Source of the DNA: Candidatus Bipolaricaulota bacterium
Lineage (GTDB): Bacteria > Bipolaricaulota > Bipolaricaulia > UBA7950 > UBA9294
DNA length: 47,164 nucleotides
Direction of reading: 5' to 3'
NCBI GenBank assembly: GCA_023132915.1
Contig: JAGLXM010000283.1
Location: 1-47,164, forward strand
This document shows positions 1,101 to 19,927 of this stretch, one piece after another (the first letter of the stretch is position 1; each line of letters starts with the position of its first letter). A program made the position numbers and the translations under genes. The notes beneath the pieces were generated by a model, which had not been told where the DNA came from, did no database searches, and worked only from the letters and a program-made list of their open reading frames with translations.

Positions 1101-2720
1101 TTAAAAACAGCGAGGAACTCTTTTCATAAGGAATGCGATGAGGTAGATGCCCATTCCGAAGACGAACCCAAGGAGGAGTCCGTTTCCCGTGCGCAAGAGG
1201 GATAAGAGAAGCGGGGTGTGTGCGTGCGCGAACGTATTTAGGATCGAGACTTGGCCGATCAGGCCGAAGAAGATAAGAAAGGGACGCCAACGCTCAGACC
1301 TTTGGCCATGACATACACCTGCTCCAAACAGGAAAAGGAGGGGGTGGCCAAGGAGGAACTCCTTGAACCGCGGTCGGGCGATTAACAGGCTCTCTAACAG
1401 GCCTCGTACTCGTTCCTCTACACCGGACACTAGACCATCGGTGTTCCCGCTTCTAAGGAGGATGAACGTTACAGTAGCGATACTCGCCAGGAGCAGTAAA
1501 GCTCCAAGGAGATCGCGTGAGGAACGAAGGAGCCCTTTTAGCCATCCCCAGCTAGCGGAGCGGGAGTAGATGATCACCCCGATAAACGGCGGGAGGAGCA
1601 GGGCCGTTTTTACTCCCCGGAACTGCGCAACCTTCACCAGGAAGGCAGGGTGGGCGAGGATAGCCCCAAGGAGAGCTCCAGCGGAAAGTGAGATAGCGGA
1701 GAAAAGAAGCAAAAATCGGGCTCCGGAGCGCCATCCGGACCGAACATGCGGTAGCAGAACAAGCCCCCCGTAGGTTGGCGCAAGCAGGGCAAGAAGGAGA
1801 GCATCGATCTGGCGCAGTAATATTCCTCTTACCCCAAGAGCCAAGGCACCCACGTTTAAGGAAAGGAGGAGGCAGGCCAGTGGGAGGTGCCCGAAAAGGT
1901 TAAGTGAAACCAGGAGCACAAGGGCGCTTATCCCCAGGTGAAATACAATTGCAACAGGCCAATCCGGCTCGGGTGGTGGTAGGGAGAGGTTCCCCAGGTG
2001 ATGGCCTCCATCTGCAATCCGCGCGGTCACCTCGTGGTAATACTTTAAGATCTCTTTTGGATCGTCTCCAGGAATGGGGGAGAGGATGAGGGCGCGGATT
2101 CCGCGCTCGCGCACCGCTCGCTCCCACCGCGCGAGGATCGCGGTGCGTGATGTCTTCAAGAGTTCCTCTCGGGGGATCTCATGGCCGCGCACGACCCGAT
2201 GAAAACCGGCGTTCCACAGGTTGCGTGCCAAAGAGGTTTCGGTGAACTCCCGCTGTATAAGAATGCTTCCCTGGTTAAGGAGTTCGATGAGGAGAGGGTC
2301 ATCAGGTGCTAGGTTTCCCTCTTCCCACACGAACGTGAATTGGTCCTTGATCTTCACTCCCTGTGGAAAAGGGCGATCGAGGATAAGCGCGGCCTTAAGA
2401 CCTTGGCGATGGATTGTGGTCGGGGATAGGCCATTTTCTTCACGCAGGGACGAGGCCCGGATGGCGACCGCTCCGATTCCGGCCTCGGCAAGTTTTAAAA
2501 GAGGGATTCCCTTTGTTTCATCGGCCCGCACCAACACGACGAACCCCTTGTTTTTCGCTTCCCAGCGGACGCGGACGAGATCGACCCCCAGTGAAACAGC
2601 AAGTGAGACAGCTAGCATTGCTATGGCGACAATCCACAGGACCCGTTTCATCATCGTTCTATACGGTAGCGGCCAATGGCCTCTCAGGCAACGGATGCTT
2701 ACTTGCTTCTCTTTTGCCAA
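1101..2720 (-). CDS. DUF5693-like polytopic membrane protein (start may be the internal Met at 2654)
   Basis: 539 aa; N-terminal TM anchor (MMKRVLWIVAIAMLAVSLAVSLGVDL), soluble domain, several C-terminal TM segments. Confidence 0.6.
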   Translation of the reverse strand: MAKEKQVSIRCLRGHWPLPYRTMMKRVLWIVAIAMLAVSLAVSLGVDLVRVRWEAKNKGFVVLVRADETKGIPLLKLAEAGIGAVAIRASSLREENGLSPTTIHRQGLKAALILDRPFPQGVKIKDQFTFVWEEGNLAPDDPLLIELLNQGSILIQREFTETSLARNLWNAGFHRVVRGHEIPREELLKTSRTAILARWERAVRERGIRALILSPIPGDDPKEILKYYHEVTARIADGGHHLGNLSLPPPEPDWPVAIVFHLGISALVLLVSLNLFGHLPLACLLLSLNVGALALGVRGILLRQIDALLLALLAPTYGGLVLLPHVRSGWRSGARFLLLFSAISLSAGALLGAILAHPAFLVKVAQFRGVKTALLLPPFIGVIIYSRSASWGWLKGLLRSSRDLLGALLLLASIATVTFILLRSGNTDGLVSGVEERVRGLLESLLIARPRFKEFLLGHPLLFLFGAGVCHGQRSERWRPFLIFFGLIGQVSILNTFAHAHTPLLLSLLRTGNGLLLGFVFGMGIYLIAFLMKRVPRCF

Positions 2721-2823
2721 TTGCGTCTCACTCGACTAAGCTTAGAGAGTCAGTCGAATTGGTCATTTCCGGATAAGGGAAGGTTCTAGGGAGAAAGGGT
2801 AGAAGCGTAACTAAGGAGGAAAC

Positions 2824-4620
2824 GTGAGCAGAGCGAGTGTGATCTTGTGTGGAGTCCTTTTGATCTTTAGTTTCATTGTTGGATTTGCCTATGACCGAGA
2901 GGCATTCCTCTTTCTGGACGAGATCGAAATCGGGATGAGGGGGATCGGGAAGACGATCGTCTCTTCTAATACGATCAGTGAATTTGCGGTAGAGATCCTC
3001 GGAGTGATCGATGAACCCAAAACCCACTCCGACTTCATCGTCGTTCGGGTGAGCGGAGAGGCGATCGGCCGCTCAGGTGGGATTTCCCAAGGGATGAGCG
3101 GAAGCCCTGTCTATATCGATGGAAAGCTGATCGGTGCCTTGAGTCGCGCCGCCACCTGGTCAAAGGAGATCACTCCGATCGGCTTGGTCACCCCTATTGA
3201 AGAGATGCTCGGCATCATTGAGTCCATAAAGGGTGATACCTTCTCCTTGGGTCCGCGGGAAGAGGCACTCCTGTCGGAGGTGCAACTGGTCGAGCTCGAT
3301 CGACCACCCCACACCGATCTCTTAAAAGGTTCTCCTGACACTATCTTCACCTACCCGGTCTCTTCGCCCCTTTTGGTCACCGGTCTCTCCGGACGGGCCC
3401 TCAAGATCCTGATGGAGGGTGCTGACTCCATGGCAGCCCCCGAGGGTCTCTTAGCGGAGTTCCTCCCGTTGGGGATTCACCCTGTCGTATGCGGGCTCTC
3501 CTCATTTGGTCTGACCCTCAATCCTGTTTCAGGGGGGAAGAGTGGCAGCTTTATCGATGGGGATGCGCTAGAACCCGGCAGTGCGATCGGGGTTGCCCTG
3601 GCGAGCGGCGATGTCACAATCGGCGCGTTAGGAACGCTCACCTACCGAGAGGAGGATGCGATCATCGGCTTCGGCCATCCCTTTCTCTTAAACGGTGAAG
3701 CCGCCTTCCCCCTGACCAGCGCGTATATCTATGACACCATGAAGGCCTACGATGCCTCGTTCAAACTGGGAACCCTCGGTGAGTCACTGGGAGCCATCCT
3801 CGAGGATCGTATCTCAGGGATCGGCGGGTTGATCGACCGGTCGGTGGACTTGATTACCCTGTCGCTCGACGTCTTCGAGCGTGATGCTGGACGTAGTGAA
3901 GACTTTCAGATCGAACTTGTTGATGAACCGCGCATAATGCCTGTACTCCTTCTGGCAAGCGGGTTTGAAGCGATCGATGCGGCTCTCGATCGGATCGGTC
4001 AGGGGACGGTAGAGGTCACCTATCAGATCTTTGGGGATGGGATGCCAACTCCGCTTGAGCGGCGCGACGTCTTCTTGAGTACGAGAGATATCGCCATCTA
4101 CCCGCCCTGGCAGTTGGCGAGTATCGTCTCCCTCCTTCAGTACAACGACTTTCAGGATCCTAAGATAAGTAACATCACCGCTTCGATGCAATTCACACAA
4201 AAGCTAAGCGCGATGCACATCAATCACCTGGAACTTGACCAAATTATCTATGAACCTGGAGACACCATTCACTACCAGGTTGAACTACAAATCTACCACG
4301 GGGAGAAGCGGATTGAAGAGGGTGAAATCCAGATCCCCATTGATCTTATAGCTGATTACATCGTTGTGCGTGCCTACGGGGGACCACGTTACTTGGAGGC
4401 AGGTGAGACGCCTATTGAGTTCGAGGATCTGAGCGAACTGATCGAGGCAGTCGAGGATTTGCCAAGCTACGATACTCTCACTGTCGAACTGTTCGCTCCT
4501 GATCCCTTCTCGCCCTACATCGAGGCGCTGCAAGGGGTGGAGGAAGTGGAGACCGAGCTCACCGGCTATTTCCTCTATGATGAACGAGAAGTAAACGCCC
4601 TTCTCTTACTGCCAGAATAG
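2824..4620 (+). CDS. SpoIVB-type serine peptidase (S55 domain) protein
   Basis: GTG start after 'aaggagg'; motif GGISQGMSGSPVYIDGKLIGALS and later GFGHPF, typical of S55. Confidence 0.8.
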   Translation: MSRASVILCGVLLIFSFIVGFAYDREAFLFLDEIEIGMRGIGKTIVSSNTISEFAVEILGVIDEPKTHSDFIVVRVSGEAIGRSGGISQGMSGSPVYIDGKLIGALSRAATWSKEITPIGLVTPIEEMLGIIESIKGDTFSLGPREEALLSEVQLVELDRPPHTDLLKGSPDTIFTYPVSSPLLVTGLSGRALKILMEGADSMAAPEGLLAEFLPLGIHPVVCGLSSFGLTLNPVSGGKSGSFIDGDALEPGSAIGVALASGDVTIGALGTLTYREEDAIIGFGHPFLLNGEAAFPLTSAYIYDTMKAYDASFKLGTLGESLGAILEDRISGIGGLIDRSVDLITLSLDVFERDAGRSEDFQIELVDEPRIMPVLLLASGFEAIDAALDRIGQGTVEVTYQIFGDGMPTPLERRDVFLSTRDIAIYPPWQLASIVSLLQYNDFQDPKISNITASMQFTQKLSAMHINHLELDQIIYEPGDTIHYQVELQIYHGEKRIEEGEIQIPIDLIADYIVVRAYGGPRYLEAGETPIEFEDLSELIEAVEDLPSYDTLTVELFAPDPFSPYIEALQGVEEVETELTGYFLYDEREVNALLLLPE

Positions 4621-4621
4621 G

Positions 4622-5974
4622 ATGTTCTCCACTGCAAAGATCGCGAAGCTCGTTGATGGGAAACTCCTGCGGGGGACAGGGGAGACGCCGCGCCGGGTGA
4701 TCCATGACTCGCGGCTGGTTCAGGAAGGAGACCTGTTCATTGCCTTTAAAGGCGAGCGGACGGATGGCCATGCGTTTCTAGAAGAAGCGTTTGCCCGGGG
4801 AGCGTGTGGGGCGATCGTTTCAGCTCCCACGGCGATTCCAAAGAGCGGGCGTAACGTGATTTGGGTCGAGGAGTCTCTCCGGGCACTGTGGACCCTCGCC
4901 GCTGCGTGGCGCAAACACCTCCAAGCAACCTTCATTGGGGTCACTGGAACGTGCGGAAAGACGACTACCAAGGCGCTTATAGGCCACCTTCTTGCTGAAA
5001 ATAGAAAGGTTTACACCGCTCCGCACAACTACAACACTGAGATCGGTCTTCCCCTTGCGCTTTTGGCGATGTCCCACGCGGCGCAGGTTGGTATCTTTGA
5101 ACTCGGGGCAAGTGCGCCCGAGGAGATCGCACCGCTCGCTGCCCTCCTTGTCCCACAAGTGGCCATCCTTACCATGGTTGGGCGAGGACACCTGGCTGGG
5201 TTTGGCAGTGTGGAGGAGGTGGCAAGGGAAAAGTGGGCCCTCATTAGCTTGCTTCCTCCCGATGGTACGGCGATCGTCAATGCCGATTCCCCCGAGCTTG
5301 CCCCACTTGTTCACGCGTGGGAGGGGAATCTCATTCCCTTTGGCCTTGAGAGGGGGAAATTACGCGGAAAAATCATCGGAACATTTCCAGGCCTTCGCAT
5401 GGAGATTAAGGAGCCCACACTTCATTTTTCCTCATCGCTTGTTGGAAGGCATAATGCAACTAATCTGCTGGCCGCGGTTGCCTGCGCGCTTCACCTCGAT
5501 ATTTCTCCAAGAGCGATCGAGCGGCGGGTAGCAACGTTTAAGCCCATTCCTCACAGGTTAACCCTTCTTTCCGCTTCGTTCGGCCATCTCATTGATGACA
5601 CCTACAACGCCAACCCCGATTCCACGGCGGCGGCTCTGCGAACCCTGGCTGAGCTTGAATTGCCGGTGAATCGACGATCGTTCGTCTTTGGCGATATGCT
5701 CGAATTGGGCGAAGCAGCGGCGCGCTTCCACCGTGAGATCCTCAGGCTCGCGCTTGGCCTTGGAATCTCCCCGATCTTCCCAGTGGGAGAGCTTGCAAAC
5801 CAGGCAGCGCAGGATGTGTTGGAGGAGGTTCCGCGCAGTACGATTATCTACTCTGACCGCCAGGAATTGGCGGGTTGTATCAGGTGCAGTCTAAAAGGGG
5901 ACAGGAATCTGCTCCTTGTGAAGGGATCGCGGCGACTCGGCCTCGAGGGGTTGGTGGAGAAGCTGACTTCTTAA
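4622..5974 (+). CDS. murF: UDP-N-acetylmuramoyl-tripeptide--D-alanyl-D-alanine ligase
   Basis: ATP site GVTGTCGKTTTKALIGHLL, YNTEIGLPLALL, DDTYNANPDSTAAALRTLAEL. Confidence 0.93.
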   Translation: MFSTAKIAKLVDGKLLRGTGETPRRVIHDSRLVQEGDLFIAFKGERTDGHAFLEEAFARGACGAIVSAPTAIPKSGRNVIWVEESLRALWTLAAAWRKHLQATFIGVTGTCGKTTTKALIGHLLAENRKVYTAPHNYNTEIGLPLALLAMSHAAQVGIFELGASAPEEIAPLAALLVPQVAILTMVGRGHLAGFGSVEEVAREKWALISLLPPDGTAIVNADSPELAPLVHAWEGNLIPFGLERGKLRGKIIGTFPGLRMEIKEPTLHFSSSLVGRHNATNLLAAVACALHLDISPRAIERRVATFKPIPHRLTLLSASFGHLIDDTYNANPDSTAAALRTLAELELPVNRRSFVFGDMLELGEAAARFHREILRLALGLGISPIFPVGELANQAAQDVLEEVPRSTIIYSDRQELAGCIRCSLKGDRNLLLVKGSRRLGLEGLVEKLTS

Positions 5975-5997
5975 GGCCATCGTGCTTTCGGTTCTAC

Positions 5998-6022
5998 ATC
6001 AGCGCACGATGCGCAGGCCACC
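5998..6022. repeat. Direct repeat (left copy), 25 bp identical to 6888-6912
   Basis: atcagcgcacgatgcgcaggccacc; reproduces the last 7 codons and stop of kdgK (GGLRIVR*). Confidence 0.95.
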
Positions 6023-6104
6023 GGCAACACCGCACGGCTGACTTGCGGTGTCGAGACAAAAAGGCATGGACTAGTGCGGCACGTTCCTGTAGAGTTTAAG
6101 TGAA

Positions 6105-6203
6105 ATGCATCGAGACTGCGTGCAGGGGAAGATCAAAGATGATGCAACAGAGGGATTGGCTGAGGCCATAGCGCTCATCCTTGAGGACAGGCGAGAGGAT
6201 GTT
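6105..6203 (+). pseudogene. HicB-like antitoxin fragment
   Basis: MHRDCVQGKIKDDATEGLAEAIALILEDRREDV resembles the HicB core (CVSQGxTxEEAxxNxxEAIxLxLEDxRED); different frame from the intact hicB downstream. Confidence 0.5.
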
Positions 6204-6255
6204 TGCGCAGTGTGCCAGCGGATGCAATACGCGAAACGGTTACGGAGGAGAGATC

Positions 6256-6540
6256 ATGTTGACCTACAAGGCGATGTACAAGTATCTCGACAAAGGCATA
6301 CATGGCGAAGTGCTGGATTTTCCAGGAGTTATCACGTGGGGCGCAGATTTGGAAGAGACACGCCGGCTGCTGGCAAGTGCCTTGGTGGACATGGCGGAGA
6401 CCAACTTACTACACGGCGAACCACTGCCCAAACCTGATCCAAACAACACAGACCCTGATGCCGATTTGGAAGAACCGATTCACCTGCTACTGACAGCAGC
6501 GACGCGTGTTGCCCTGGTCCCCCAGGGTACAGCACAGTGA
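6256..6540 (+). CDS. hicB: HicB-family antitoxin
   Basis: MLTYKAMYKYLDKGIHGEVLDFPGVITWGADLEETRRLLASALVDMAETNLLHGEPLPKP; RBS ggaggag; overlaps hicA start. Confidence 0.82.
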   Translation: MLTYKAMYKYLDKGIHGEVLDFPGVITWGADLEETRRLLASALVDMAETNLLHGEPLPKPDPNNTDPDADLEEPIHLLLTAATRVALVPQGTAQ

Positions 6541-6725
6541 AAAGGCGTGATCTGCTGCGACACCTGCGTCAGTATGGCTGCCGATTCGTGCGTGAAGGTA
6601 GCGAACATTCGATTTGGGAAAACCCGGCTACGAACCGCCGTACCTCGGTGCCGCGCCATCGGGAAATTCCAGATTACACTGCAAGGCGCATCTGCAACCA
6701 GCTTGTCATTCCCTTGCCGTCTTGA
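6537..6725 (+). CDS. hicA: HicA-family mRNA interferase toxin
   Basis: MKRRDLLRHLRQYGCRFVREGSEHSIWENPATNRRTSVPRHREIPDYTARRICNQLVIP; GxxxxREGSxHxIW and VPRHxEI motifs. Confidence 0.88.
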   Translation: MKRRDLLRHLRQYGCRFVREGSEHSIWENPATNRRTSVPRHREIPDYTARRICNQLVIPLPS

Positions 6726-6780
6726 GCGGCAAGATGTGGTCTGCACTCGACACTTTTGTGTGATCATGCTCCATGATCAG

Positions 6781-6867
6781 GCGGTTCCACGGCATTCTGA
6801 GATCTCAGACAAGCTCGCCCGCAAGATTTGCCGCAACCTTTTAGCGCCAAATAGACCAAGTCCATAG
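6781..6867 (+). pseudogene. HicA C-terminal fragment (second copy)
   Basis: AVPRHSEISDKLARKICRNLLAPNRPSP* aligns with the HicA C-terminus SVPRHREIPDYTARRICNQLVIPLPS; shifted frame, N-terminus absent. Confidence 0.7.
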
Positions 6868-6887
6868 ATTCTACTGGCCGTCCTATA

Positions 6888-6912
6888 ATCAGCGCACGAT
6901 GCGCAGGCCACC
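6888..6912. repeat. Direct repeat (right copy) inside the kdgK 3' end
   Basis: Exact 25-bp match to 5998-6022; contains GCGCA-CGA-TGCGC inverted repeat. Confidence 0.95.
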
Positions 6913-7878
6913 ACCCTCAAGGAGCCGTTCGGTCTCCTCGCAGGTCGCCCAACAAAGGTCGCCGGGGTTGGTCTGCTTGAGGGCGGAGATGGCAACGCCA
7001 TAGCGCACCGCAGCAGCAGGGCCGTCGTGCAGGTAACCGAAAAGAAACCCACCGGTGAAGGAATCACCGGAGCCAACTCGGTCCACGACCTCGATGTCGA
7101 ACTTCGGCCCGCGGTGGATCTTCCCATTGGCGTATGCGATGGCGGTCCAGGTGTTTCGCCACACCGATGGTGTCTCGCGCAAGGTGATTGCTACCGCTCC
7201 GAGGTGGAATTGCTCAGCCAGAGCCTTGGCAACCTCTTCGTAGTTATCCTTCTTGATCCCGAACACCCGCTCTGTGTCCTCCTCAGTGGTGATGAGGATG
7301 TCGGCTGCATCCACCAACTCTGACATGACCTCACGCGCTTTTTCTTGTGACCATAGCAATGCTCGGTAGTTGAGATCGATCGATACCTTGATGCCTGCCT
7401 TCCTCGCTACACGAACCGCCTCTTTTGTCGCCTCGGCCGCTGTGGAAGAGAGGGCTGGGGTGATCCCGGATGTGTGGAACATCTTTACCCCTTTAAAGAT
7501 CGCATCCCAATCGACTTCTCCAGGACGAATGCGTGCGATCGCTGAATCACGGCGGTCATATACCACGGAGTTGGGACGGGGGCTTGCCCCGAACTCCACA
7601 AAGTAGGTTCCCACCCGATCATCATCGGTCCAGACAATGTAGGAGGTATCCACTCCGTGCTCGCGGGCCTTGTTCGCGATCATCCGGCCCAGAGGATTGT
7701 TGGTGAGGCGAGTGACGTAGGCCACTCCAAGCCCTAGTCGTTGCGCAGCGACGGCCACGTTTAACTCCGAGCCTCCGACGTTTATATCGAGCAGGTTTGT
7801 CTGCTCCAGCCGCCGGAAATTCGGTGGTGAGAGGCGAATCATTGCCTCTCCAAACATCACAAGGTCATGGTGGCGCAT
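6889..7878 (-). CDS. kdgK: 2-keto-3-deoxygluconate kinase-like PfkB-family sugar kinase
   Basis: FGEAMIRLSP, NVGGSELNVAVAAQRLG, DRVGSGDSFTGGFLFGYL; adjacent to eda. Confidence 0.88.
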   Translation of the reverse strand: MRHHDLVMFGEAMIRLSPPNFRRLEQTNLLDINVGGSELNVAVAAQRLGLGVAYVTRLTNNPLGRMIANKAREHGVDTSYIVWTDDDRVGTYFVEFGASPRPNSVVYDRRDSAIARIRPGEVDWDAIFKGVKMFHTSGITPALSSTAAEATKEAVRVARKAGIKVSIDLNYRALLWSQEKAREVMSELVDAADILITTEEDTERVFGIKKDNYEEVAKALAEQFHLGAVAITLRETPSVWRNTWTAIAYANGKIHRGPKFDIEVVDRVGSGDSFTGGFLFGYLHDGPAAAVRYGVAISALKQTNPGDLCWATCEETERLLEGGGLRIVR

Positions 7879-8591: not shown

Positions 8592-9143
8592 TTACCGCCA
8601 TTTATCGTACGTTACTATCTCATTTAACTTCTTACGCTTCTTAGGGAGGCTCGGACTGACAGCCTGAACTGGATATCCAAGTGGAAGCAAAATCACCACT
8701 CTGATCTGATCGGGGATATCAAGAATTTTCTTGACTTCATCCTCTTCAAAATCACCTATCCAGCAACTGCCTAGGCCTTCCTCTACTGCCTTAAGTGTCA
8801 TGTGATCTATAGCTATAGCTAGTTCTATAGGATACGCCACTTGGCCACAGGGCATGATACGACTGGTGTCAGTAGCACAAGCAGCTATGACGACTGGTGC
8901 CTGTCCTACGAATTCTTGGCCATGTGCGGTTTTGGTCAGTTTCTGTCGAGTAGAAGAGTCTCTTACTATCACAAACCGCCACTCCTGACGATTGTACGCT
9001 GAGGGAGCCCACCGAGCCGCCCCTAATACTCGCTTGAGTTTATCCTCTTCAACATCTTTGGTCTGATAATTGCGCACAGCATAGCGCTCTTTGATAGCAT
9101 CTATTACATTCATCGCGTTTAGCTCCTTAAAGTTGCTCTTCAT
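8592..9143 (-). CDS. Nitroreductase family protein
   Basis: IKERYAVRNYQTKDVEEDKLKRVLGAARWAPSAYNRQEWRFVIV; EGLGSCWIGDFEEDEVKKIL. Confidence 0.9.
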   Translation of the reverse strand: MKSNFKELNAMNVIDAIKERYAVRNYQTKDVEEDKLKRVLGAARWAPSAYNRQEWRFVIVRDSSTRQKLTKTAHGQEFVGQAPVVIAACATDTSRIMPCGQVAYPIELAIAIDHMTLKAVEEGLGSCWIGDFEEDEVKKILDIPDQIRVVILLPLGYPVQAVSPSLPKKRKKLNEIVTYDKWR

Positions 9144-9219
9144 GCTTCCGTATCTTATGGAACCTTTCCACCCTCAAATTGCTCCGGTGTGTCCTTTCCC
9201 GTTCTCTATATTCCTTCGG

Positions 9220-9339
9220 CTAAATGGCCTCCGCTACCTGAAGAAGATTATCGGAAGTCGTGGCCCTTATCACCGCTACAACTCCGGTGTCTAACATCAG
9301 TTGAAGATTCTCTTCGGCTGGGTTCATAAATGCGATCAT
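9220..9339 (-). pseudogene. Truncated KDPG aldolase (eda) N-terminal fragment
   Basis: Manual translation MIAFMNPAEENLQLMLDTGVVAVIRATTSDNLLQVAEAI*; GVVAVIR is typical of the Eda N-terminus. RBS gaaggag; stop after 39 aa. Below the ORF-track size cutoff. Confidence 0.7.
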
Positions 9340-9407
9340 CTATATCTACTCCTTCTCGTGTTTATAGACCAAAATTCCATTTCTCACGTGGATCGTTTAA
9401 ATACCCG

Positions 9408-10316
9408 CTAAACTACCAGTTCGGTTCCCACTTTATGTGATATCAGCAAATCTCGAACGCGATTCAGATGCTCTCTGGTGGGTGGTTCAAGACCCTGTAG
9501 CCCGTATTCTCTCCCTAACATCTTGTACTTTGAGACTCCTAGTCGATGATACGGTAAAAGATCCACTCTCAAAGCCAAGACCTCTTTAGTTAGTTCAATT
9601 AACTCATTGATATTCTCCTTCGAGTCATTTATTTTTGGTATTATAGCAAGCCGTATTATTATTGGCATCTTTTTCTGCCCCATTCGTCTAACATTCTCCA
9701 ATATCAGCTCGTTACTTGCCCCAGTATACGCTTTGTGCTTGAGTGGGTTCATGTGTTTAATATCATAGAGTGTTATATCAACATACTTTATAATCTTTTC
9801 TAAATCGCTCCACTGCCCATAACCGCTTGTATCCAATACCGTGTGAATCCCTCTCTCCTTGCATGCTTTAAGAATCTCTCTAGTGAACTCTGGTTGAGCG
9901 AGCGGCTCACCCCCTGATATTGTGACGCCGCCATCAGATGATCGATAGAACGGTATGTCCTTCTCGACCGCTTTTAGAACTTCTTCGACTGAGACCCTTT
10001 GTCCGATAACTGTTAGGGCGTTAGAGTAGCATACCTTTGCACACTCGTTGCATTTCACCTTACACAAATCTCTGCTGATCTTAATTCCTTGCCTTTCATC
10101 TTTTTCCATGGCATTTGCTGGGCATGTCTTTATACATTCCTCGCACCCATCGATATGAAGATTCGCATTGTACATTATCTCAGGCGATGAGCGCTGAGAT
10201 TCGGGATTACTGCACCATACACACCTAAGGGGACACCCTTTTAGAAACACGGTAGTCCTTATTCCCGGCCCATCATCTAGCCGAGACCTTTGTATGTCGA
10301 ATATCAATCCTTCCAT
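9408..10316 (-). CDS. Glycyl radical enzyme activating protein (radical SAM, with ferredoxin-type insert)
   Basis: DGPGIRTTVFLKGCPLRCVWCSNPES (CxxxCxxC); CEECIKTCPANAM and CNECAKVCYSNAL cluster motifs. Confidence 0.93.
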   Translation of the reverse strand: MEGLIFDIQRSRLDDGPGIRTTVFLKGCPLRCVWCSNPESQRSSPEIMYNANLHIDGCEECIKTCPANAMEKDERQGIKISRDLCKVKCNECAKVCYSNALTVIGQRVSVEEVLKAVEKDIPFYRSSDGGVTISGGEPLAQPEFTREILKACKERGIHTVLDTSGYGQWSDLEKIIKYVDITLYDIKHMNPLKHKAYTGASNELILENVRRMGQKKMPIIIRLAIIPKINDSKENINELIELTKEVLALRVDLLPYHRLGVSKYKMLGREYGLQGLEPPTREHLNRVRDLLISHKVGTELVV

Positions 10317-10343
10317 TCTCCTCCTTCGGATGTATATCGAAGC

Positions 10344-12719
10344 TCAAGATGCTTCAAATTCAGTTCTGCTTAAAATTTCATCCTGAAGTTCTTTGCTGAG
10401 TTGGTTCCATGGAGCAACGTAAGCTGCAACTCTCACCATAAGCTCGGGGTACCTCTCCGGATGTTTTTGGGCTTCCTTTAACACTCTAATATCAACAATA
10501 TTAAATTGTATATGGAATCCGCCAAGGCTCAGATATGTCTTGATCAGCTTCGCGAAGTTTCGAAGCCGTTCTTTACCCGTCAGGGTGTGCACATTAAACC
10601 TCATGTTTAACAAAGTTCCATTCGCTACTAGCGCATGATCCTGTTTTACCATCGATTTCAAGACAGCGGTGGGGCCACTCTTCGCTTGCCCTTGTACTGG
10701 CGAATGCGCATCCGATAAGGGTGCCTTCGCCTTACGGCCGTCGGGGGTCGCACCAACGTATTCTCCAAGGGCATCATGAGATGACACAGAAAAGGTTCCC
10801 GGTAGAAATGGCCCCCCTCTCAGGTTCCTATACCAGTGTACCTCATTGCAGTAATGTCCAACGATCTCGCAGGCCAGATGATCCACTTCGTCTATATCAT
10901 TTCCGAACTTTGGTGGCTCGTTCAATAGCCTTTGCCTTAGCATCTCCCGCTCCTTAAAATCGCTGTTCAGAGATTCGAGCAAAGTTTCCATGCTGATAGC
11001 TCTCTCATCGAATATGAGTCTCTTTACGGCTATTAGAGAATCTGCGGCTGTCGCCATCCCTACTCCCTGGATACCTGTGAAGTTATAGAGGGCACCGCCG
11101 TGATTTACCTCCCGTCCGCTCTCTAAGCATCCGTCCACTAAGATGGATTCCAATGGTTCCGGCCACCGCTCTTTATGAGATAGCTCAACAGCATGTAAGG
11201 CTTGTACCAGCAAGCGAACTCCATTTGCAATTTGTTTCTCAAATGCATCCTTCAATTCACTAAACGACCTGAACTCCGTGGCTTTCCCTGTAGCTGGGCC
11301 TATTTTGTTATTAGTCTCCGGATCAATTCCGTTGTTTAGCGCTAATTCGAGACATTTAGCGAGATTTAGCGAGCCAGCGTTGCTCCATCCCCATGTTTTC
11401 CCAGGGATGGAGTTCTCAACGCAGCCTACGAATGCATAATTTCCCTCCGCCTCTTTTGGGGGTATACCCGCATTGATTAATGATTGGATACCGACATGCA
11501 CATTAAAGAATTTTGGCTTGTTAGTCTTTGGCACGAGCTTAGCTGCCTTGAGCAGAAACTCATCGCTCATCTTGTTCGTCCAGAGCACCGCAACGTCTGG
11601 TTGAGGGAGTCTAACCTCCTCCTCTACTTCGAGCATTAACTCCGAAAGCTCATTTGTGGCGTCCTCTCCCTCAGGAGTTAATCCCCCTAACTCGGGGGGA
11701 TCAGTTACAGGGAAACCAGCATACAATCTTGCGCCTTTATTGCTATACAATTTAAGAATTTCACTACACTTTAACCAAAAGCTGACTAATAAATCTTTAG
11801 CTTCATCTTTCGTTAAGTCGTGTTCTTTAACGCCACTTCTGAAATACGGATATAGATATTGATCCATCCTCCCAAGTGTCACACCGTAACCATTTGAATC
11901 TATATGAAGGATAACATGAATGAGCCACAATCCTTGCAGAGCTTCGTAAAAGGTTCGTGCTGGTTTAGCTGGTACCTGATCAAGCACTTCTACTATCTGC
12001 AGTAACTCTTTCCTCCTTTGCAAATCTCTTTCATCCTCGGCTAGACCTTTTGCAAGTTCCCTATACCGTTTAGCATAAGCCTTGACCGCCTCACAGCAAA
12101 TTAAACACGCTTTGTAAAATATGTTTTTGGAAAATTCCTCTGGGTTCTCTAAGCGCAAGGCGCTCATTCTATCTTTTATCGATTGTTCCATTCCGTTAAG
12201 ACCCTGCCTCAATACTCTTTCATAATTTGGTATGAAGTGACCAACTCCACTAATTAACATGTTTTCAAAACAAATTAACCCCGAATCATTAGCTTTTTTA
12301 GAATCCGCGGGCATTATTGAAAGGGCAAGATCTTTCAGCGTTTTCCCCAACCACCATGGAAGTGTCTCCCGCAACTTTCCTTTGACTTCTGCCGGCACTA
12401 TAAACTTATCTCCAGGCCTTGTTTCATATGTGTCCATTTCATTTAAAATATGATCTACGGCACCTTCCGGGTAAACTGGGGCAGATATAGGTTCAGGCCC
12501 TAAATTCCCTACAATAAGCTCATGAGGTTGAATATATATGGTCATCTCACTTAATATCTTCTTTAATGCCTTAGCTCGTCTTAGTATTTGGGGCTCCCCC
12601 TCAGTAGTCTTATAGATTTCCGTAATAAGTTTCGCTCTCTCTGAAGTAAGCTTGGGCTTTATCAGTCTTGCTAAGATCTTCTCTCTTACTTGTTTAATTT
12701 CTTCTTTTCTTAACATCAT
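10344..12719 (-). CDS. Glycyl radical enzyme (PFL-like) with Ala at the radical Gly position
   Basis: 791 aa; GCVE active-site motif (AFVGCVENSIPG), GATPDGRKAKAPLSDAHSPVQGQAKSGPTAVLKS, GGFHIQFNIVD; C-terminal loop reads VRVAAYVAPWNQLSKELQDEILSRTE. Confidence 0.9.
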   Translation of the reverse strand: MMLRKEEIKQVREKILARLIKPKLTSERAKLITEIYKTTEGEPQILRRAKALKKILSEMTIYIQPHELIVGNLGPEPISAPVYPEGAVDHILNEMDTYETRPGDKFIVPAEVKGKLRETLPWWLGKTLKDLALSIMPADSKKANDSGLICFENMLISGVGHFIPNYERVLRQGLNGMEQSIKDRMSALRLENPEEFSKNIFYKACLICCEAVKAYAKRYRELAKGLAEDERDLQRRKELLQIVEVLDQVPAKPARTFYEALQGLWLIHVILHIDSNGYGVTLGRMDQYLYPYFRSGVKEHDLTKDEAKDLLVSFWLKCSEILKLYSNKGARLYAGFPVTDPPELGGLTPEGEDATNELSELMLEVEEEVRLPQPDVAVLWTNKMSDEFLLKAAKLVPKTNKPKFFNVHVGIQSLINAGIPPKEAEGNYAFVGCVENSIPGKTWGWSNAGSLNLAKCLELALNNGIDPETNNKIGPATGKATEFRSFSELKDAFEKQIANGVRLLVQALHAVELSHKERWPEPLESILVDGCLESGREVNHGGALYNFTGIQGVGMATAADSLIAVKRLIFDERAISMETLLESLNSDFKEREMLRQRLLNEPPKFGNDIDEVDHLACEIVGHYCNEVHWYRNLRGGPFLPGTFSVSSHDALGEYVGATPDGRKAKAPLSDAHSPVQGQAKSGPTAVLKSMVKQDHALVANGTLLNMRFNVHTLTGKERLRNFAKLIKTYLSLGGFHIQFNIVDIRVLKEAQKHPERYPELMVRVAAYVAPWNQLSKELQDEILSRTEFEAS

Positions 12720-13896
12720 TTCTTTGTCTCCCCGCAGCTAATTCCTGAAAGACTTCTCCCATCCTTTTTACGCCTTTCCGGATGTTCTCAGTTGAGTTGG
12801 CAAAACAAACCCGGATATAGCCCTCGCCTTCCGCGCCAAAAGCGCTGCCTGGAGCTACTGCTACTCGAGCCTTTTCGAGAAGCAACCTTGAAAGATCAAA
12901 CGAAGGAATCCCAAACTGACGAATGTCCACGAAAGCATAGAAAGTCCCCCTGGGTTTGAAGACCTTCAATCCAGGGATCTGAGCGAGTTCTGCGATAAGA
13001 ATGTCTCGTCTACGTTCATACTCCTTGACCATCTTCAGCGGAATTTCCACCGGCAACTCCAGGGCAGCCAAGGCGGCCATCTGGGAAACAGAGCTTGTAC
13101 AAGCAGAGGTATGCTCATGGAGTTTGGCAGTCTTATCTGCAAGTTGTTTTGGTGCTGCCAGATAACCCACGCGCCACCCGGTCATCGCATAGGATTTGGA
13201 GAAGGTTCGTAAGATAACGGTCCTTTCTTTCATTCTTTCTAGGGAAGCGATGCTCAGGAACTTCTTCCCATCGAACACAAGGCTCTCATAGGCCTCATCG
13301 GAGAAAACCAGGAGATCATTCGCCCTCGCTACATCCGCGATTACTTCTAAGTCCTCCCGATCCAGAACCGCTCCAGTAGGATTGTGCGGATAGTTAATGA
13401 GAAGCACTTTTGTATTCTCTGTGATCGAGTTTTTTAAGGTCTCTGTCACAAGTTTGAATTCATGCTTCTGCTCAAGCACAAGCTTTTTATATTTTCCGCC
13501 CGCTAAAAGGACGTGGGCCGGGTAGTTCGGCCAGTGTGGCGAGGGTAGCAGAACCTCGTCTCCTTTATTAAGAGTTACTAACATTATGAGGAGAAGAGCT
13601 TCCATTCCTCCGGCTGTAATGACGATTTCGTCCGGATCGAATTGCACTTCAAGCTCTTCGGTAAGTTTAGCCGCGAGCTTTTCCCGAAGACTTTTGATTC
13701 CCGCGCTTGGCGTATAGTGGGTCATCCCTTTCTTCGCCGCCTCAAATGCAGCTTCTACAATGGGTAAAGGAGTATCAAAGTCAGGTTCACCGATCTCAAA
13801 GTGGATTACGTCTTCCATCTTCCCTGCTAAATCAAATATCTCACGAATCCCTGAATAAGGCAGGTTCTTTGCACGCTGAGATATAAAGCTACTCAT
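12694..13896 (-). CDS. PLP-dependent aminotransferase, class I/II
   Basis: HFEIGEPDFDTP, NYPHNPTGAVLDREDLE, FSKSYAMTGWRVGYLAAP. Confidence 0.93.
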   Translation of the reverse strand: MSSFISQRAKNLPYSGIREIFDLAGKMEDVIHFEIGEPDFDTPLPIVEAAFEAAKKGMTHYTPSAGIKSLREKLAAKLTEELEVQFDPDEIVITAGGMEALLLIMLVTLNKGDEVLLPSPHWPNYPAHVLLAGGKYKKLVLEQKHEFKLVTETLKNSITENTKVLLINYPHNPTGAVLDREDLEVIADVARANDLLVFSDEAYESLVFDGKKFLSIASLERMKERTVILRTFSKSYAMTGWRVGYLAAPKQLADKTAKLHEHTSACTSSVSQMAALAALELPVEIPLKMVKEYERRRDILIAELAQIPGLKVFKPRGTFYAFVDIRQFGIPSFDLSRLLLEKARVAVAPGSAFGAEGEGYIRVCFANSTENIRKGVKRMGEVFQELAAGRQRNDVKKRRN

Positions 13897-15146
13897 AGTG
13901 CCTCTTCCTCCTTATAAATACACTGGGCTGCCGACATAGCTCGTTCCACGTCTACATCAGCTCCAAGGTCACGCAGAGCCATGCCAAAAGCGAAAATCGC
14001 GTAAAGTACTTTGTGATATCTCGCAGCTTCTCCCATTGTTCCAAATCGGACGTAGTTCCTACCTATCTGGGATTTGTAGACATCCCACGACATCATGTTG
14101 GCATCGCCTAGGATCACCCTATACTGTTCGAATAGTTGCTTACGGATCTGGTAATCCTCGATACCGTTAGACAAAAAAATCGCGGACACCGCGTTGTCGG
14201 CATACCGATCATCCTGACAGATGTAGCCCAACCCCATCGCCTTTACCGCCGATCGCACTGCCTTTCCCGCGATCTCGTGTCGCGCGATGCTCCTTTCCAG
14301 CCCTTCCTCCTTGAGCTGCTTCAGAGAAGCCCACACCCCTTGGATAATCACAAATGACGGGGATGCCGGATGAGGCGCTTCTTCTAGATGAAACTCAAAC
14401 TTGTTACCACCGGCCGCCCAGTTCTTCTGCTCGGTCCGCGCCATGTTTAGATAATCCTTGCAGGCCAGCAGATTCATGTAGAACCCACGAATCCGCTCCC
14501 TTCGCCCTCGGATCCGTTCCCACGCTCGCGGACTGACCGAGACAAACGTGTTCCCTTGCGGTGCCCCGAGACACTTCTGGCCATTTACCACACACAAATC
14601 AATGTTCCAGTCATCCACACGCAGTTCCTCACTGGCAAAAGAGGAAATAGCATCCACCACGTAAAGAAGGTTTCGCTCCCGAGCTAGCTGCCCAATTTCC
14701 TCCAGTGGATTCGCCACGCCAACGCTGGTTTCCCCGTGAACGACACCGATCCCTTTGAGGTTTCTCTCTTTATCGAGGGCCACTGCAATGACTCCAGGAT
14801 CAACAGGCGTTCCTAACTCGAAGGGGACCTTAACTGGGACCGCACCGGCAGCTTGCGTCATCAAACTCATGATTTCACCAAACATGCCATTGTGTGCAAT
14901 GAGAAAGCGGTCGCCTGGCTCGAGAATCGAGTTCAAGGAAGCTTCTATCCCCGAGGTTCCAGTCCCAAAGACAATTATAATTTCATTCTTCGTACCTAAG
15001 AATTCCTGTAGCAAAGCGAGTGCTTCCTCCTCCATTTGCCAGAATGGCGGAGAATAGATAGTAATAACGTCTTTTCCCAAGGTCCTCTTGCACTTTTCTG
15101 TCAACTCTGTCTGACCGCAGCTCATATTGAACGCTTCCTGATTCAT
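13893..15146 (-). CDS. PLP-dependent aminotransferase, class V (serine-pyruvate/alanine-glyoxylate type)
   Basis: GTGTSGIEASLNSILEPGDRFLIAHNGMFG, HGETSVGVANPLEEIG, VDAISSFASEELRVDDWNIDLCVVNGQKCLGAPQG. Confidence 0.88.
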   Translation of the reverse strand: MNQEAFNMSCGQTELTEKCKRTLGKDVITIYSPPFWQMEEEALALLQEFLGTKNEIIIVFGTGTSGIEASLNSILEPGDRFLIAHNGMFGEIMSLMTQAAGAVPVKVPFELGTPVDPGVIAVALDKERNLKGIGVVHGETSVGVANPLEEIGQLARERNLLYVVDAISSFASEELRVDDWNIDLCVVNGQKCLGAPQGNTFVSVSPRAWERIRGRRERIRGFYMNLLACKDYLNMARTEQKNWAAGGNKFEFHLEEAPHPASPSFVIIQGVWASLKQLKEEGLERSIARHEIAGKAVRSAVKAMGLGYICQDDRYADNAVSAIFLSNGIEDYQIRKQLFEQYRVILGDANMMSWDVYKSQIGRNYVRFGTMGEAARYHKVLYAIFAFGMALRDLGADVDVERAMSAAQCIYKEEEAL

Positions 15147-15165
15147 AAAAGACCTCCCTTGGATA

Positions 15166-15512
15166 CCCCCCAGCTTACTGGGGGAAGGAAAGCGGAGATT
15201 CGCCGTAGGCGAATCTGCTTGTTAGTAGGGGCTACATGAGTTCTATCAGAAATGTCCGGTTGCAAGGTTGGGCGGAGACAATCGCTGCCGAGAATCTCGC
15301 GGGGAGAAGTCCCTTTAACGTCGAGGATAACCCCCTCAACGTCGGAGGTAAGCTCCGACGCTACGAAGAGATGGCCGTAGCGGCGCACCTTGTGTGCGAC
15401 GTTACCTTGGGTGTGATAAAGCAGTACATCAAATTGCACCATGAGGACCAACTCCGCTTAGATCTTTAGGTCTTGCTTTTCAATGCCCCGCAGCTTGCTG
15501 CGGGGTTCTTTA
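15166..15512. mobile_element. Putative non-autonomous IS200/IS605 (Y1)-type palindromic element (PATE/MITE-like)
   Basis: Similar same-orientation hairpins at both ends: CCCCCAG-CTTA-CTGGGGG (15167-15184) and CCCCGCAG-CTTG-CTGCGGGG (15486-15505); extra hairpin AGATTCGCC-GTA-GGCGAATCT (15196-15216). No transposase ORF. Confidence 0.5.
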
Positions 15513-17411
15513 CTCCCTGACGAACTTCTCCTTTAGGAAGTTGAGTCCCAAGTCCTGCAGCTTCTTAGCCGTTGGCACACCAGTTTTCGTATTCCAACCT
15601 CGAAGTTTGTAGTACTCCTCAAGCATTTGGCCTAATTTCTCTTGCGTCAGGGTAGCCTCCCCTCTCTTTAAGCTCGGAGACGGCTCGAACATACGTGGGG
15701 GCAACACATCCAGATCGCGACAAGTTCGACCTTCTCGAAGGTTAAAAGCTCGCTCTAAGGTAACGATCTTTTCTCCTCTGTTTCTGATCTCATCAACTGA
15801 CATGGGAATCCCTGTCGCTGTTCCAAACATTGTCGCTAAGTTCTCAAAATTAATCCTGGTATACGACCAGGTGTCCGTAAACACGCAAATACCTAAGCAA
15901 TCAGACACGGAGTAGATATCTTCATGCCACGCCACCAGTTTAGGTTTTCCTTCCGGGGAAAGGGAGTCCACACCTTTCTCACTTCCACTCACTTCGATCG
16001 CAAGTTGACGGACTTCCGGGGTATACGCGAACTCCGCTAAACATTCCGTTGTTAGATGGTCAGGTCCTCTGGGATTCAGCGCAAAAGCCAACGCATAGCT
16101 CATTGATCCTCGAACATCAATCCCGGTCTGCTCCAGGCCATTCGCTTGTACGGCGAAGCTTTCTGCACCATGCCCGATCTTGCCAGCAGCGATGCGGCTA
16201 CCATCGGCCAACAGATCTCCAATGCCTTTTCGGCACGACATCATTTCTAACAGGGAAAGCATAGCGTCGGCATTCCCCCACGATAAATCTAATCCTCCCA
16301 AATCTTGCCCCTTCAGCAATCCCCGCTCATTACATTCCATCGCAAAAGAGACCATACTCCCAGCGGATACGATGTCCATTCCCATCAAATTACAGATCTC
16401 GTTTCCTTTAATGATCGCTGCGGCATCGGTAATATCACATTTGGAACCTAGCGAAACCAAGGTCTCATACTCTGGTCCAGCAGTATAGGCTCCTTTGTAA
16501 GGCCCGGATCGCACACGGGCGAAGCGGCCACAATGAAAGACACAAGAGGAGCAGGCCTCGGGATGTGCAAATTTTTCAGAGACATATTCTCCACTGATTT
16601 TATACACATCGGGAATAAACCCGTCTTGAAAATTCTTATGCGGGAGGGTTCCCCCTTCATTCGATCCTATAACCCCCTGTGCTGTACCAAACTTAAAGGA
16701 GCGGGTCCAGCAGTATTCGTCTTCGCGAAGAGCTCTGCGAGCAGCTAGTGCTGCCTCCATGAACTGATCGGGATCTGCAACGCTTATATCACCCGTACCG
16801 CGCACCGCGATGGCTTTCAGATTCTTCGAACCCATCACAGCTCCGACGCCACCTCGGGCAGCCGTACGGTAGATGGAGGCCATTATACTGGCGAAATTGA
16901 CCAAATTTTCTCCAGCTGGACCAATCATCGCGACTTTGATCTGATCATCCGCTAGCTCTTCCTTGATCAGTTGATCAGTCATCCGCGTATCCATCCCCCA
17001 GAGATGCTGAGCATCGCGAATCTCTACCTTCTCATCGTCGATCCACAGGTATACAGGATGATCTGCTCGCCCCAATACCACAATAAAATCGTACCCTGCA
17101 AACTTCAGTTCAGGAGCAAAATGAGAACCTACGTTGGCCTTCAAATACAGGTGTGTAGCCGGGGACTTACAGGTAATTGTCATTCGCCCTGAACATGGTG
17201 CAAACGTGCCTCCAAGGGTACCGGTCCCGAAAATCAAGGGATTTTCAGGGCTAAGTGGATCCAGCCCTTTATTCGTCAATTCCCAAAGCAACTTCGCGTT
17301 AACACCACGTCCTCCTAGGTATTCATAGAGGAGTGCCTCTTCCACAGGACGCTTTTCCACTTCTTCATGGGTAAGATCGACCCAAAGCATCTGGCCTGCT
17401 ATGCCGAACAT
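15510..17411 (-). CDS. Aldehyde ferredoxin oxidoreductase (tungsten AOR family)
   Basis: YLGGRGVNAKLLWELT, GTGTLGGTFAPCSGRMTITCKSP, ACSSCVFHCGRF, AARGGVGAVMGSKNLKAIAVRG. Start taken at the internal Met after an RBS. Confidence 0.93.
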   Translation of the reverse strand: MFGIAGQMLWVDLTHEEVEKRPVEEALLYEYLGGRGVNAKLLWELTNKGLDPLSPENPLIFGTGTLGGTFAPCSGRMTITCKSPATHLYLKANVGSHFAPELKFAGYDFIVVLGRADHPVYLWIDDEKVEIRDAQHLWGMDTRMTDQLIKEELADDQIKVAMIGPAGENLVNFASIMASIYRTAARGGVGAVMGSKNLKAIAVRGTGDISVADPDQFMEAALAARRALREDEYCWTRSFKFGTAQGVIGSNEGGTLPHKNFQDGFIPDVYKISGEYVSEKFAHPEACSSCVFHCGRFARVRSGPYKGAYTAGPEYETLVSLGSKCDITDAAAIIKGNEICNLMGMDIVSAGSMVSFAMECNERGLLKGQDLGGLDLSWGNADAMLSLLEMMSCRKGIGDLLADGSRIAAGKIGHGAESFAVQANGLEQTGIDVRGSMSYALAFALNPRGPDHLTTECLAEFAYTPEVRQLAIEVSGSEKGVDSLSPEGKPKLVAWHEDIYSVSDCLGICVFTDTWSYTRINFENLATMFGTATGIPMSVDEIRNRGEKIVTLERAFNLREGRTCRDLDVLPPRMFEPSPSLKRGEATLTQEKLGQMLEEYYKLRGWNTKTGVPTAKKLQDLGLNFLKEKFVRE

Positions 17412-17415
17412 GTTG

Positions 17416-17928
17416 TCATTCACCTCTTTCTGATTCCATGGACTGCAGCCGACGCTGAGCAACCTTTCTCACTCTTAGCCGAGCTGCCAATTTCTCCGGG
17501 ATCCACTGCAATGCTCCGGCTGTACAGTATTGGGCACAATAAGGCGTCGTTCCTAGGCTGGAACATAGGTCGCACTTCACCAATTTCCCATGAGCATCAA
17601 GGGAGATAGCTCCTATTGGACAGGCATTCACGCACTCACTGCACCCAACGCACTGCGTGGCATCATACTGGACTACTCCCCCCTCATCTTGAGAAAGAGC
17701 GTCGGTAGGGCAAACCGAAACGCAGGGAGCATCTGCGCACTGCTCGCACAGAATTGGAACGAAGTTCCCGCGGTTATCGTCTCTCCAAACCCGTATTCGT
17801 GAGCGCTCGTAGCTGAAGGCCTTCTCATGGACAAAAGAGCATATGAGCATACAGGTGTTGCAGCCTGTGCACTTCTCTGTATCGATGAATAACATCATGC
17901 GCTCGGCATTATCGGTCGAGATCGCCAT
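17416..17928 (-). CDS. 4Fe-4S ferredoxin/electron transfer subunit (AOR-associated)
   Basis: CTGCNTCMLICSF, CEQCADAPCVSVCPTDAL, CVGCSECVNACPIGAI, CDLCSSLGTTPYCAQYC. Confidence 0.9.
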   Translation of the reverse strand: MAISTDNAERMMLFIDTEKCTGCNTCMLICSFVHEKAFSYERSRIRVWRDDNRGNFVPILCEQCADAPCVSVCPTDALSQDEGGVVQYDATQCVGCSECVNACPIGAISLDAHGKLVKCDLCSSLGTTPYCAQYCTAGALQWIPEKLAARLRVRKVAQRRLQSMESERGE

Positions 17929-18127
17929 ATTCCAGACCTCCTTTCCCTGCAAATACAGCTTCTCCTCTTCTTGCTTTCAAGTAACTCCAACACCCGCGGC
18001 AGAAGTAGACCCCTTCCTCACCTGTTGGTGAGGAGACGGCGTGCTCCTTGCACAGTGCCAGGCCGCACAAGTGGCACTGAAAGATCGCAGGGTTTGGACA
18101 CCCGGTTACACCACATTTCCCTTTCAT
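17909..18127 (-). CDS. Small B-box-like zinc-binding protein
   Basis: 72 aa: CGVTGCPNPAIFQCHLCGLALCKEHAV...YFCRGCW. Confidence 0.6.
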   Translation of the reverse strand: MKGKCGVTGCPNPAIFQCHLCGLALCKEHAVSSPTGEEGVYFCRGCWSYLKARRGEAVFAGKGGLEYGDLDR

Positions 18128-19251
18128 GAGGTACCTCCTATAAGCTTCTCTACTGGCCGGTAGTCAATCCGTTCACCATATCGGTCTGAAGCGAACGCTC
18201 GGGCACCAGCCTCTGTTTCCAGCGCCTCCCGAAGTCGAGGATGGCACGGAACAGCCACTAAGAGAAGTTCGCGTCCCTCTTTGATGTCGGGGGTCATCAC
18301 ACCTTTGTTCGTGTCAGGGTCAAGGAGCAGTATAAGATCGGGGAAGATTACGATGGGACGTCCGTCAAGGCGAGCACACATCACCTCATTTTTGATCGTG
18401 AGATCTACAGTACGCCCTTTAAAACCGCCCGATCCCTTGACACGCACGTGGGCAAAATAGAAACCACCTCGGTTTTCTCCATTAATAACAGTTACCTTTC
18501 CCCATAACAACGGGAATCCTTCAAGGTGTTCGCTGAGACTTGCCAACTTATCTCCAGGTTGCCCAGTCAACGAAGTAACAAAGCCTCCAAGATCAATTGC
18601 TTTCGTGATCGTATTTGGGATCACAGATCGCTTAAGTTCTGCACCACTCATAGGGTAGTGCGAATTGGCCATCAATCCTCGCTTTGTTGATACCACAAAC
18701 CGGCCAACCTCGTCTGGGAAAAAGATGTCGTTACTCTCCTTTACAATTACAACGGTGCCCTTGGAGTCGACAAGTGGCATGGGCGTGAGTTTAACTCCGT
18801 GCCCAATAAAGCTAGTCATCTGTGTCTCCGGTGCGGCACGTCCCAGGGCATCCCCATCAACCACGGGGATTCCCAGCCGAGCTCCAGCAGAGAGGATTAC
18901 CGGTGTGTTTCCACCGCCCATTTCAAAAGGCACAAGATAATCGATGCGTCGGCCAATAAGTGTTTCCATCTCGCGTAAAGCGCATTCTAATTCAAAGCTG
19001 TGTTCCCACTCATCGACGACCCGATCAAGTGCTCTGTCCTCTGCGACCGATCCCAGGTACCCTCCACTCACCACCAAAGCATCCTCTCCCACCTCTTCAG
19101 GATTCACAAGCTGGTACACTCGACCTTTCGCCAAATCCGCATCGATGATGCTTGCCCCCCATGTATCAGGATCACCTCCTCCTCCTGTGCCCAGAATGCC
19201 CAACCCTCTTAGCATCCATTCGAGTTCTTTGCGTTCGCTGAATTTCCGCAT
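18124..19251 (-). CDS. DUF917 (S-methyl thiohydantoin desulfurase-like) domain protein
   Basis: LGILGTGGGGDPDTWG, ALVVSGGYLGSVAEDRA, PFEMGGGNTPVILSAGARLGIPVVDGDALGRAAPETQM. Confidence 0.85.
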   Translation of the reverse strand: MRKFSERKELEWMLRGLGILGTGGGGDPDTWGASIIDADLAKGRVYQLVNPEEVGEDALVVSGGYLGSVAEDRALDRVVDEWEHSFELECALREMETLIGRRIDYLVPFEMGGGNTPVILSAGARLGIPVVDGDALGRAAPETQMTSFIGHGVKLTPMPLVDSKGTVVIVKESNDIFFPDEVGRFVVSTKRGLMANSHYPMSGAELKRSVIPNTITKAIDLGGFVTSLTGQPGDKLASLSEHLEGFPLLWGKVTVINGENRGGFYFAHVRVKGSGGFKGRTVDLTIKNEVMCARLDGRPIVIFPDLILLLDPDTNKGVMTPDIKEGRELLLVAVPCHPRLREALETEAGARAFASDRYGERIDYRPVEKLIGGTS

Positions 19252-19261
19252 CCAAACCTCC

Positions 19262-19927
19262 TTATCCGATCTTTACCAAATTCAGATCCTCCACACTTTG
19301 CTTGCCCTCATGAAGGAGCTTTGCTGTATATGCCACCCTTTGCCCAACCCTCCTTGCTGCTTCTAGACCTATGGAATCTTTATACACGGCTTCCCGGGTA
19401 TCTTCCTCCATCTGCCATGCTGCCCCACCAATATAGTCCCCTCCAACGCAGACAAACCCACTACTGAGAAACCAATGCAATATATTTGAGAGGGCGTGTT
19501 CCACGCCTCCGTGGCGATGAAAGCCAATTGCCACTGCTCCCGCTGCTGTCTTTGTCCAATCCGGGGGAGGAAAAGGGAACTCCTTGTCCCATAGCTGTGT
19601 GAACAAGCAGGTGCACCGCTCGAAAAACGCTCGTAGAATAGACGGCACATTAAAAAAATAGACGGGCGATCCGATGATTACTCCATCGGGAGGAGGATCG
19701 ATAAGGGCGTTGGTCAATTCCCTCCAGTCGTCCTTTTTCCAACAGTAGCTCTTTTGTTGTACACAGTAGTCACAGTCAATGCAAGGCTCAATCCGCTTTC
19801 CTGCAAAAGAGAGAAACTCGACCTCAACTTCAAACGGAAATTCCTGAGCTGCCTGGAGTGCCTCTTTAACAAGGATCTCTGTGTTCCCGTGCCGAGGACT
19901 TGCCGCAATACCTAATACTCTAACCAC
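19262..19927 (-). CDS. Flavodoxin/NADPH-dependent FMN reductase family protein
   Basis: VLGIAASPRHGNTEILVKEALQAA, IEPCIDCDYCVQQKSYCWKKDDW, DGVIIGSPVYFFNVPSILRAFFERC. Confidence 0.9.
   Translation of the reverse strand: MVRVLGIAASPRHGNTEILVKEALQAAQEFPFEVEVEFLSFAGKRIEPCIDCDYCVQQKSYCWKKDDWRELTNALIDPPPDGVIIGSPVYFFNVPSILRAFFERCTCLFTQLWDKEFPFPPPDWTKTAAGAVAIGFHRHGGVEHALSNILHWFLSSGFVCVGGDYIGGAAWQMEEDTREAVYKDSIGLEAARRVGQRVAYTAKLLHEGKQSVEDLNLVKIG

Follow-up and report, generated by a model that had tools for sequence, protein, structure and literature searches.

The murF–kdgK interval

The window, that is, the whole 47,164-nucleotide stretch of Candidatus Bipolaricaulota DNA analysed here, corresponds to contig 205 in a draft genome. 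Its convergent murF and kdgK genes are separated by two direct repeats of 25 bp and the 865 bp enclosed between them (Table 1). Exact matching re-found this repeat pair (ATCAGCGCACGATGCGCAGGCCACC; 890 bp from start to start), which had been reported in the first-pass annotation and is unique genome-wide. The search for additional genomic copies proposed in that annotation yielded none beyond these two: at up to three mismatches, no third copy is present in the window (expectation from shuffled sequences, 0) or in the whole genome. The right copy is, as identified earlier, the 3′ end (seven codons plus stop) of the minus-strand sugar-kinase gene kdgK, and the left copy begins, as had been described, 23 bp past murF.

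Table 1 Features of the murF–kdgK interval, with positions in the window.
Feature	Position	Strand	Evidence
murF, left neighbour	4622..5974	+	Mur_ligase_M 5.6e-37, Mur_ligase_C 4.7e-13
Left 25-bp repeat copy, duplicated kdgK 3′ terminus	5998..6022	+	Exact match to 6888-6912; single copy here in G001
865-bp insert, missing from congeneric empty site	6023..6887		Alignments to G001 break off and resume at the repeat
Remnant of another, different hicB (C-terminal part)	6105..6253	+	72% DNA identity to L035; 77% over 26 aa
hicB antitoxin, intact	6256..6540	+	UPF0150 1.8e-6 (Pfam)
hicA toxin, intact	6537..6725	+	HicA_toxin 3.8e-14 (Pfam)
Remnant, C-terminal end of a second, different hicA	6779..6867	+	79-81% DNA identity to L035 and L036; 71-72% over 24-25 aa
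Right 25-bp repeat copy, last 7 codons of kdgK plus stop (GGLRIVR-stop) and one downstream base	6888..6912	+	
kdgK, intact, right neighbour, convergent with murF	6889..7878	-	PfkB 2.2e-44; stop codon 6889-6891

The only content recognised in the insert is hicBA and remnants of hicBA. The intact hicB and hicA overlap by 4 bases in one operon and, with both Pfam domains present, are predicted to form a toxin–antitoxin pair; this hicBA is also found in G066, a genome of the same class, and in the Acetothermia bacterium 64_32 record LGFI01000015. The hicB and hicA remnants on either side fall below Pfam thresholds. Relatives of both are contiguous as one hicBA in G052 (locus L035) and on contig 21 of G016, which points to one toxin–antitoxin pair nested in the ruins of another. 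The earlier description of a hicBA cassette between the repeats therefore stands for the intact pair, but the cassette is not a clean one, the insert being a mosaic that includes remnants of a second hicBA.

No integrase or recombinase was identified by Pfam in the insert, and no recombinase or transposase among the main ORFs of the window that were scanned. Unlike a DDE transposon or insertion sequence, the insert lacks terminal inverted repeats, the longest inverted match between its 50-bp inner ends being 7 bp. Neither attC box (RYYYAAC or GTTRRRY) has a match on the + strand of 5975-6912, a search that covers both strands because the two boxes are reverse complements. A perfect 8-bp stem (ACACCGCA/TGCGGTGT; 9-nt loop) without a T run can be read near the inner left edge of the insert (6027-6051). 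Past kdgK and a KDPG-aldolase gene, the window (8592-23014) holds metabolic genes, among them those for a glycyl-radical enzyme together with a radical-SAM protein and for an aldehyde ferredoxin oxidoreductase.

Empty sites and relatives of the cassette

In the congener G001 the 3′ part of murF is joined to the 3′ part of kdgK through a single 25-mer with one mismatch. The G001 alignments to the window from the murF and kdgK sides overlap by exactly 25 bp, and the order at the junction is murF, GGCCATCGTGCTTTCGGTTCTAC, one repeat and kdgK, with 23 bp between murF and the repeat; window and G001 differ here by 865 bp plus one repeat. The first-pass annotation had predicted that removal of one repeat and the insert would leave a clean murF/kdgK junction, and G001 carries just such an empty site. 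With this empty site, the duplicated gene end and an intact kdgK, the simplest reading, also that of the earlier annotation, is a real insertion between murF and convergent kdgK, in which the 3′ terminus of kdgK became duplicated.

We infer a gain in the window genome rather than a loss in G001, a comparison based on one informative congener. The converse, in which the genus started out with the occupied arrangement and recombination between the repeats removed the cassette from G001, would yield precisely the G001 junction, and the single repeat mismatch leaves the event unpolarised, since relatives mostly share the codon of the window. Such a loss nevertheless seems improbable: an origin for the repeat would still be required, and its identical copies point to a young duplication. 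An assembly artefact, fusing unrelated sequences at a 25-bp word, might be suspected, as the draft genome (2.49 Mb) is split into 354 contigs and its contamination is estimated at 7%. However, one 47-kb contig contains both junctions, and other assemblies show the same anatomy with repeat copies that have diverged, something that an assembler would not produce; we consider an artefact highly implausible.

Two further features of the neighbouring genes were observed. Only the last ~186 codons of the G001 kdgK (L033, G001:C112) are recognisable, the N-terminal part being replaced by unrelated sequence, so that either the gene is truncated, as it appears, or the contig is rearranged there. Across window positions 5000-6022, murF identity is mosaic: close to the 3′ end it reaches 94-99% with G001 and G003, but upstream it is much lower, which suggests within-gene recombination.

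The HicB subfamily of the window is present in 4 of the 100 phylum genomes searched, and in two of these it lies at the kdgK 3′ end, with differing genes on the other side. The second such case is in G016, from another genus, where hicB and hicA (83% DNA identity to those of the window) are found beside the 3′ end of kdgK. This hicB has an internal stop, a DUF2283-like gene follows hicA, and the other neighbour of the cassette encodes an M42-like peptidase. A relative of G016, G028, has 107 bp at the same place, compared with 934 in G016. No direct repeat was detectable at the G016 kdgK site. The start of contig G016:C113 (L034, 1-70) resembles untrimmed Illumina adapter. Searches of viral contigs and plasmids found no relatives of the window HicB. 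In other phyla, flanking repeats accompany an Anaerolineae relative of the window hicBA (47 bp, coinciding with the 3′ end of a phosphotransbutyrylase-like gene), a Dehalococcoidia relative (46 bp, near rRNA-like sequence) and a Chloroflexi relative (26 bp, weaker); most of the others examined have no flanking repeat.

Repeats and gene ends at other toxin–antitoxin loci

Among hicA loci with enough flank in the family to which the window genome belongs, a long direct repeat at cassette spacing (500-1100 bp) was found at 10 of 53, compared with 4 of 299 control placements (Fisher p = 1.7e-6; the four positives represent two distinct repeats, and overlapping placements are not fully independent). 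These control placements were unselected; in an earlier control (4/166) every positive came from a locus that had been retrieved by a leuD or PIN search, and the control was repeated for this reason. Repeats at the other hicA loci are 37-210 bp long, compared with 25 bp in the window, and the majority of hicA loci in the family have no flanking repeat. Of the ten repeats, five can be recognised as the 3′ ends of genes, namely kdgK, leuD, a glycosyltransferase, an acyl-CoA ligase and a DegT-like aminotransferase; apart from kdgK, these names come from reading the translations. The acyl-CoA ligase and glycosyltransferase end copies have kept their reading frame. In G032, three DegT-like end copies bracket nucleotidyltransferase, HEPN-like and PIN genes, followed by hicBA. 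PIN-toxin loci were considered as further cases and some have flanking repeats; these loci were left uncounted because several of the repeats lie within a recurring GGGGACGCA-like repeat and are not gene ends. At three of them (L204, L209 and L215) the flanking recurring repeat contains GGGGACGCA-like words and probably represents a separate, dispersed element.

Downstream of intact leuD, fragments of its 3′ end are found in genomes of several genera (G000, G002, G004, G009, G014, G016 and G022). In five of these genomes, cargo was identified between leuD and the first fragment: hicAB (G000), DUF4258 (G002), DUF4258-DUF2283 (G016), HEPN-nucleotidyltransferase (G022) and a DUF2283-like gene (G009). 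On the 5′ side the fragments break off sharply, close to codon 122 or codon 83; they differ from the leuD end of their own genome by 16-27%, mainly at synonymous positions. Omega between fragment and own leuD is 0.07-0.17 in four of the five computable cases and 0.34 in G014 (one comparison was saturated); the interspecies leuD median is 0.12. Most copies have thus probably diverged as working genes rather than as decaying detached duplicates, as expected if a cassette arrives with a donor gene end, and the leuD ends probably diverged in different organisms and were later brought together. Alternatively, the low omega may be due to exchange between copies. At 117-120 bp, the copies are too short for the foreign one to be picked by identity to other genera; in G000 the leuD tail resembles other genera slightly more, whereas the body is most similar to the congener G002, which is suggestive only.

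Mode of insertion

The first-pass annotation had proposed an att-like site at the kdgK terminus, likened the inverted repeat GCGCA-CGA-TGCGC to a recombinase core site and suggested mobilisation in trans; the enzyme would be a tyrosine recombinase or a similar one. The inverted repeat is indeed present in the 25-mer, but it encodes part of LRIVR, an ending that KdgK relatives throughout the class share, whether an insert is present or not; the palindrome is thus conserved coding sequence that also occurs at insert-free sites. Related cassettes are located at several sites (3′ ends of leuD, DegT, acyl-CoA ligase, glycosyltransferase and phosphotransbutyrylase-like genes), and no word common to the duplicated ends at nine loci exceeds shuffled expectation, which speaks against a single recombinase using a fixed core. 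Searches of related genomes with the outer flanks of the insert gave no match showing a shared element. Restoration of the gene 3′ end by duplication, the exact empty site and the short palindrome are all compatible with integration in trans, and integrative elements that target gene 3′ ends through a tyrosine recombinase similarly duplicate the gene end, keep the gene intact and have an exact empty site. The window insert differs from these in its size (<1 kb) and in the lack of an integrase, and its sites share no core. With the 25-mer having no other copy and repeat lengths ranging from 25 to about 210 bp, the att-like site is not upheld, and recombinase action in trans on the kdgK end appears quite unlikely.

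Our preferred reading, to which we assign a probability of about 0.5, is that integrase-less toxin–antitoxin cassettes are set at gene 3′ ends by host recombination, the mosaic hicBA of the window being one case. The cassette would carry a copy of the 3′ end of its target gene as a homology address. Recombination between the flanking direct repeats would excise it as a circle with one gene end and, in a cell with the same gene, a single crossover in the gene end would reinsert the circle, restoring both gene and flanking repeats and leaving the target gene undamaged; addiction would then favour persistence of the cassette. The circle or donor DNA, the action of host RecA and the direction of transfer are presumed in this scheme.

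Insertion by host recombination is suggested by direct observations of occupied and empty sites, of the duplication and its recurrence at other genes, and of synonymous-biased leuD divergence. Flanking repeats are enriched at hicA loci and several of them are gene 3′ ends; leuD 3′ ends bear different cassettes bounded by leuD end fragments, with an omega that fits a donor gene end coming with the cassette; and the empty site of G001 has a single repeat copy. Two of the four genomes with the HicB subfamily have the kdgK site, with a relative of the second lacking the cassette, and neither a common core motif nor an integrase nor terminal repeats were found. Against this reading count the window repeat, which is 25 bp long with identical copies and no sign of a donor end, and the lack of a repeat at the G016 kdgK site and at most hicA loci, as well as the leuD omega of 0.34 in one case, the saturation in another and the possibility that low values represent copy exchange. 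Further points on this side are the draft state of the neighbouring genomes and the leuD copies, which do not show which of them is foreign. A length of 25 bp is near the minimum usually quoted for RecA-type recombination.

Because its repeat is only 25 bp, the window cannot separate a homology address from plain long target duplication, in which a cassette that needs no homology to the target would be caught at a break whose nicks are widely staggered, and the target would be copied by fill-in; for the window alone the two explanations do equally well. Plain duplication would account for repeat copies that are identical and match the single G001 copy save for one base, and restriction-modification systems are reported with long, variable target duplications of ~100 bp (PMC3874152). 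Overall it seems less likely than a homology address: most differences between the leuD fragments and leuD of the same genome are synonymous, unlike those of a decaying detached duplicate, the acyl-CoA ligase and glycosyltransferase copies are still in frame, and two hicBA insertions at the kdgK end would be improbable with random targets.

Insertion with long target duplication, a mode associated with Kobayashi to which the present cassettes appear related, has been described for restriction-modification complexes (Nobusato 2000 and Furuta 2010, as presented in passages of PMC3874152, PMC3031569 and PMC1643837). Common to those complexes and the present loci are the insertion of an addictive gene pair without linked mobile-element genes, variable-length direct repeats of the target recognised by comparing related genomes, and a related genome, here G001, with an empty site and one target copy. 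The mode is alike but the cargo class is not, being hicBA here and restriction-modification there; repeats here are often gene 3′ ends, and the leuD copies have diverged like functional genes. The earlier duplications are of the order of 100 bp, compared with a short 25 bp in the window and 37-210 bp at other hicA loci. Gene-end duplications are not described in the passages searched of a type II survey (PMC2701414) or of a HicAB review (PMC11594946).

In Microcystis, a ParDE-like toxin–antitoxin pair directly downstream of MaOC1 is flanked by identical 152-bp direct repeats (PMC7935541). It resembles the window in placing a toxin–antitoxin pair beside a gene between direct repeats, but those repeats begin 14 bp past the gene, hold inverted repeats and are not described as a gene end (PMC7935541). 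Integron gene cassettes likewise include sub-kilobase toxin–antitoxin cassettes, sometimes arrayed; in contrast, the window insert has no attC boxes and is bounded by copies of a host gene end. An integron-like array with GCCTAAC...TGCAGCG...GTTAGGC motifs between small genes was seen in L035 (G052:C8:53000-60000, ~1200-4060), and its members include a PIN-like gene and the hicBA related to the window remnants.

These loci bear on an old question, the movement of chromosomal toxin–antitoxin modules without an obvious vehicle. The murF–kdgK locus offers a sharp occupied/empty pair, and in the survey flanking repeats were far commoner at hicA loci of the family than at controls and were often copied ends of neighbouring genes. 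Synonymous-biased divergence at leuD turns the mechanism into a testable choice between a donor-borne homology address and duplication on insertion. More tentatively, toxin–antitoxin modules may constitute a class of minimal recombinase-less mobile units, for which a host gene 3′ end, carried along as a copy, would serve as both homology address and spare part, host recombination would insert them harmlessly and could excise them, and stacked events would build arrays at preferred genes such as leuD. If so, leuD-type arrays would resemble an integron without integrase or attC.
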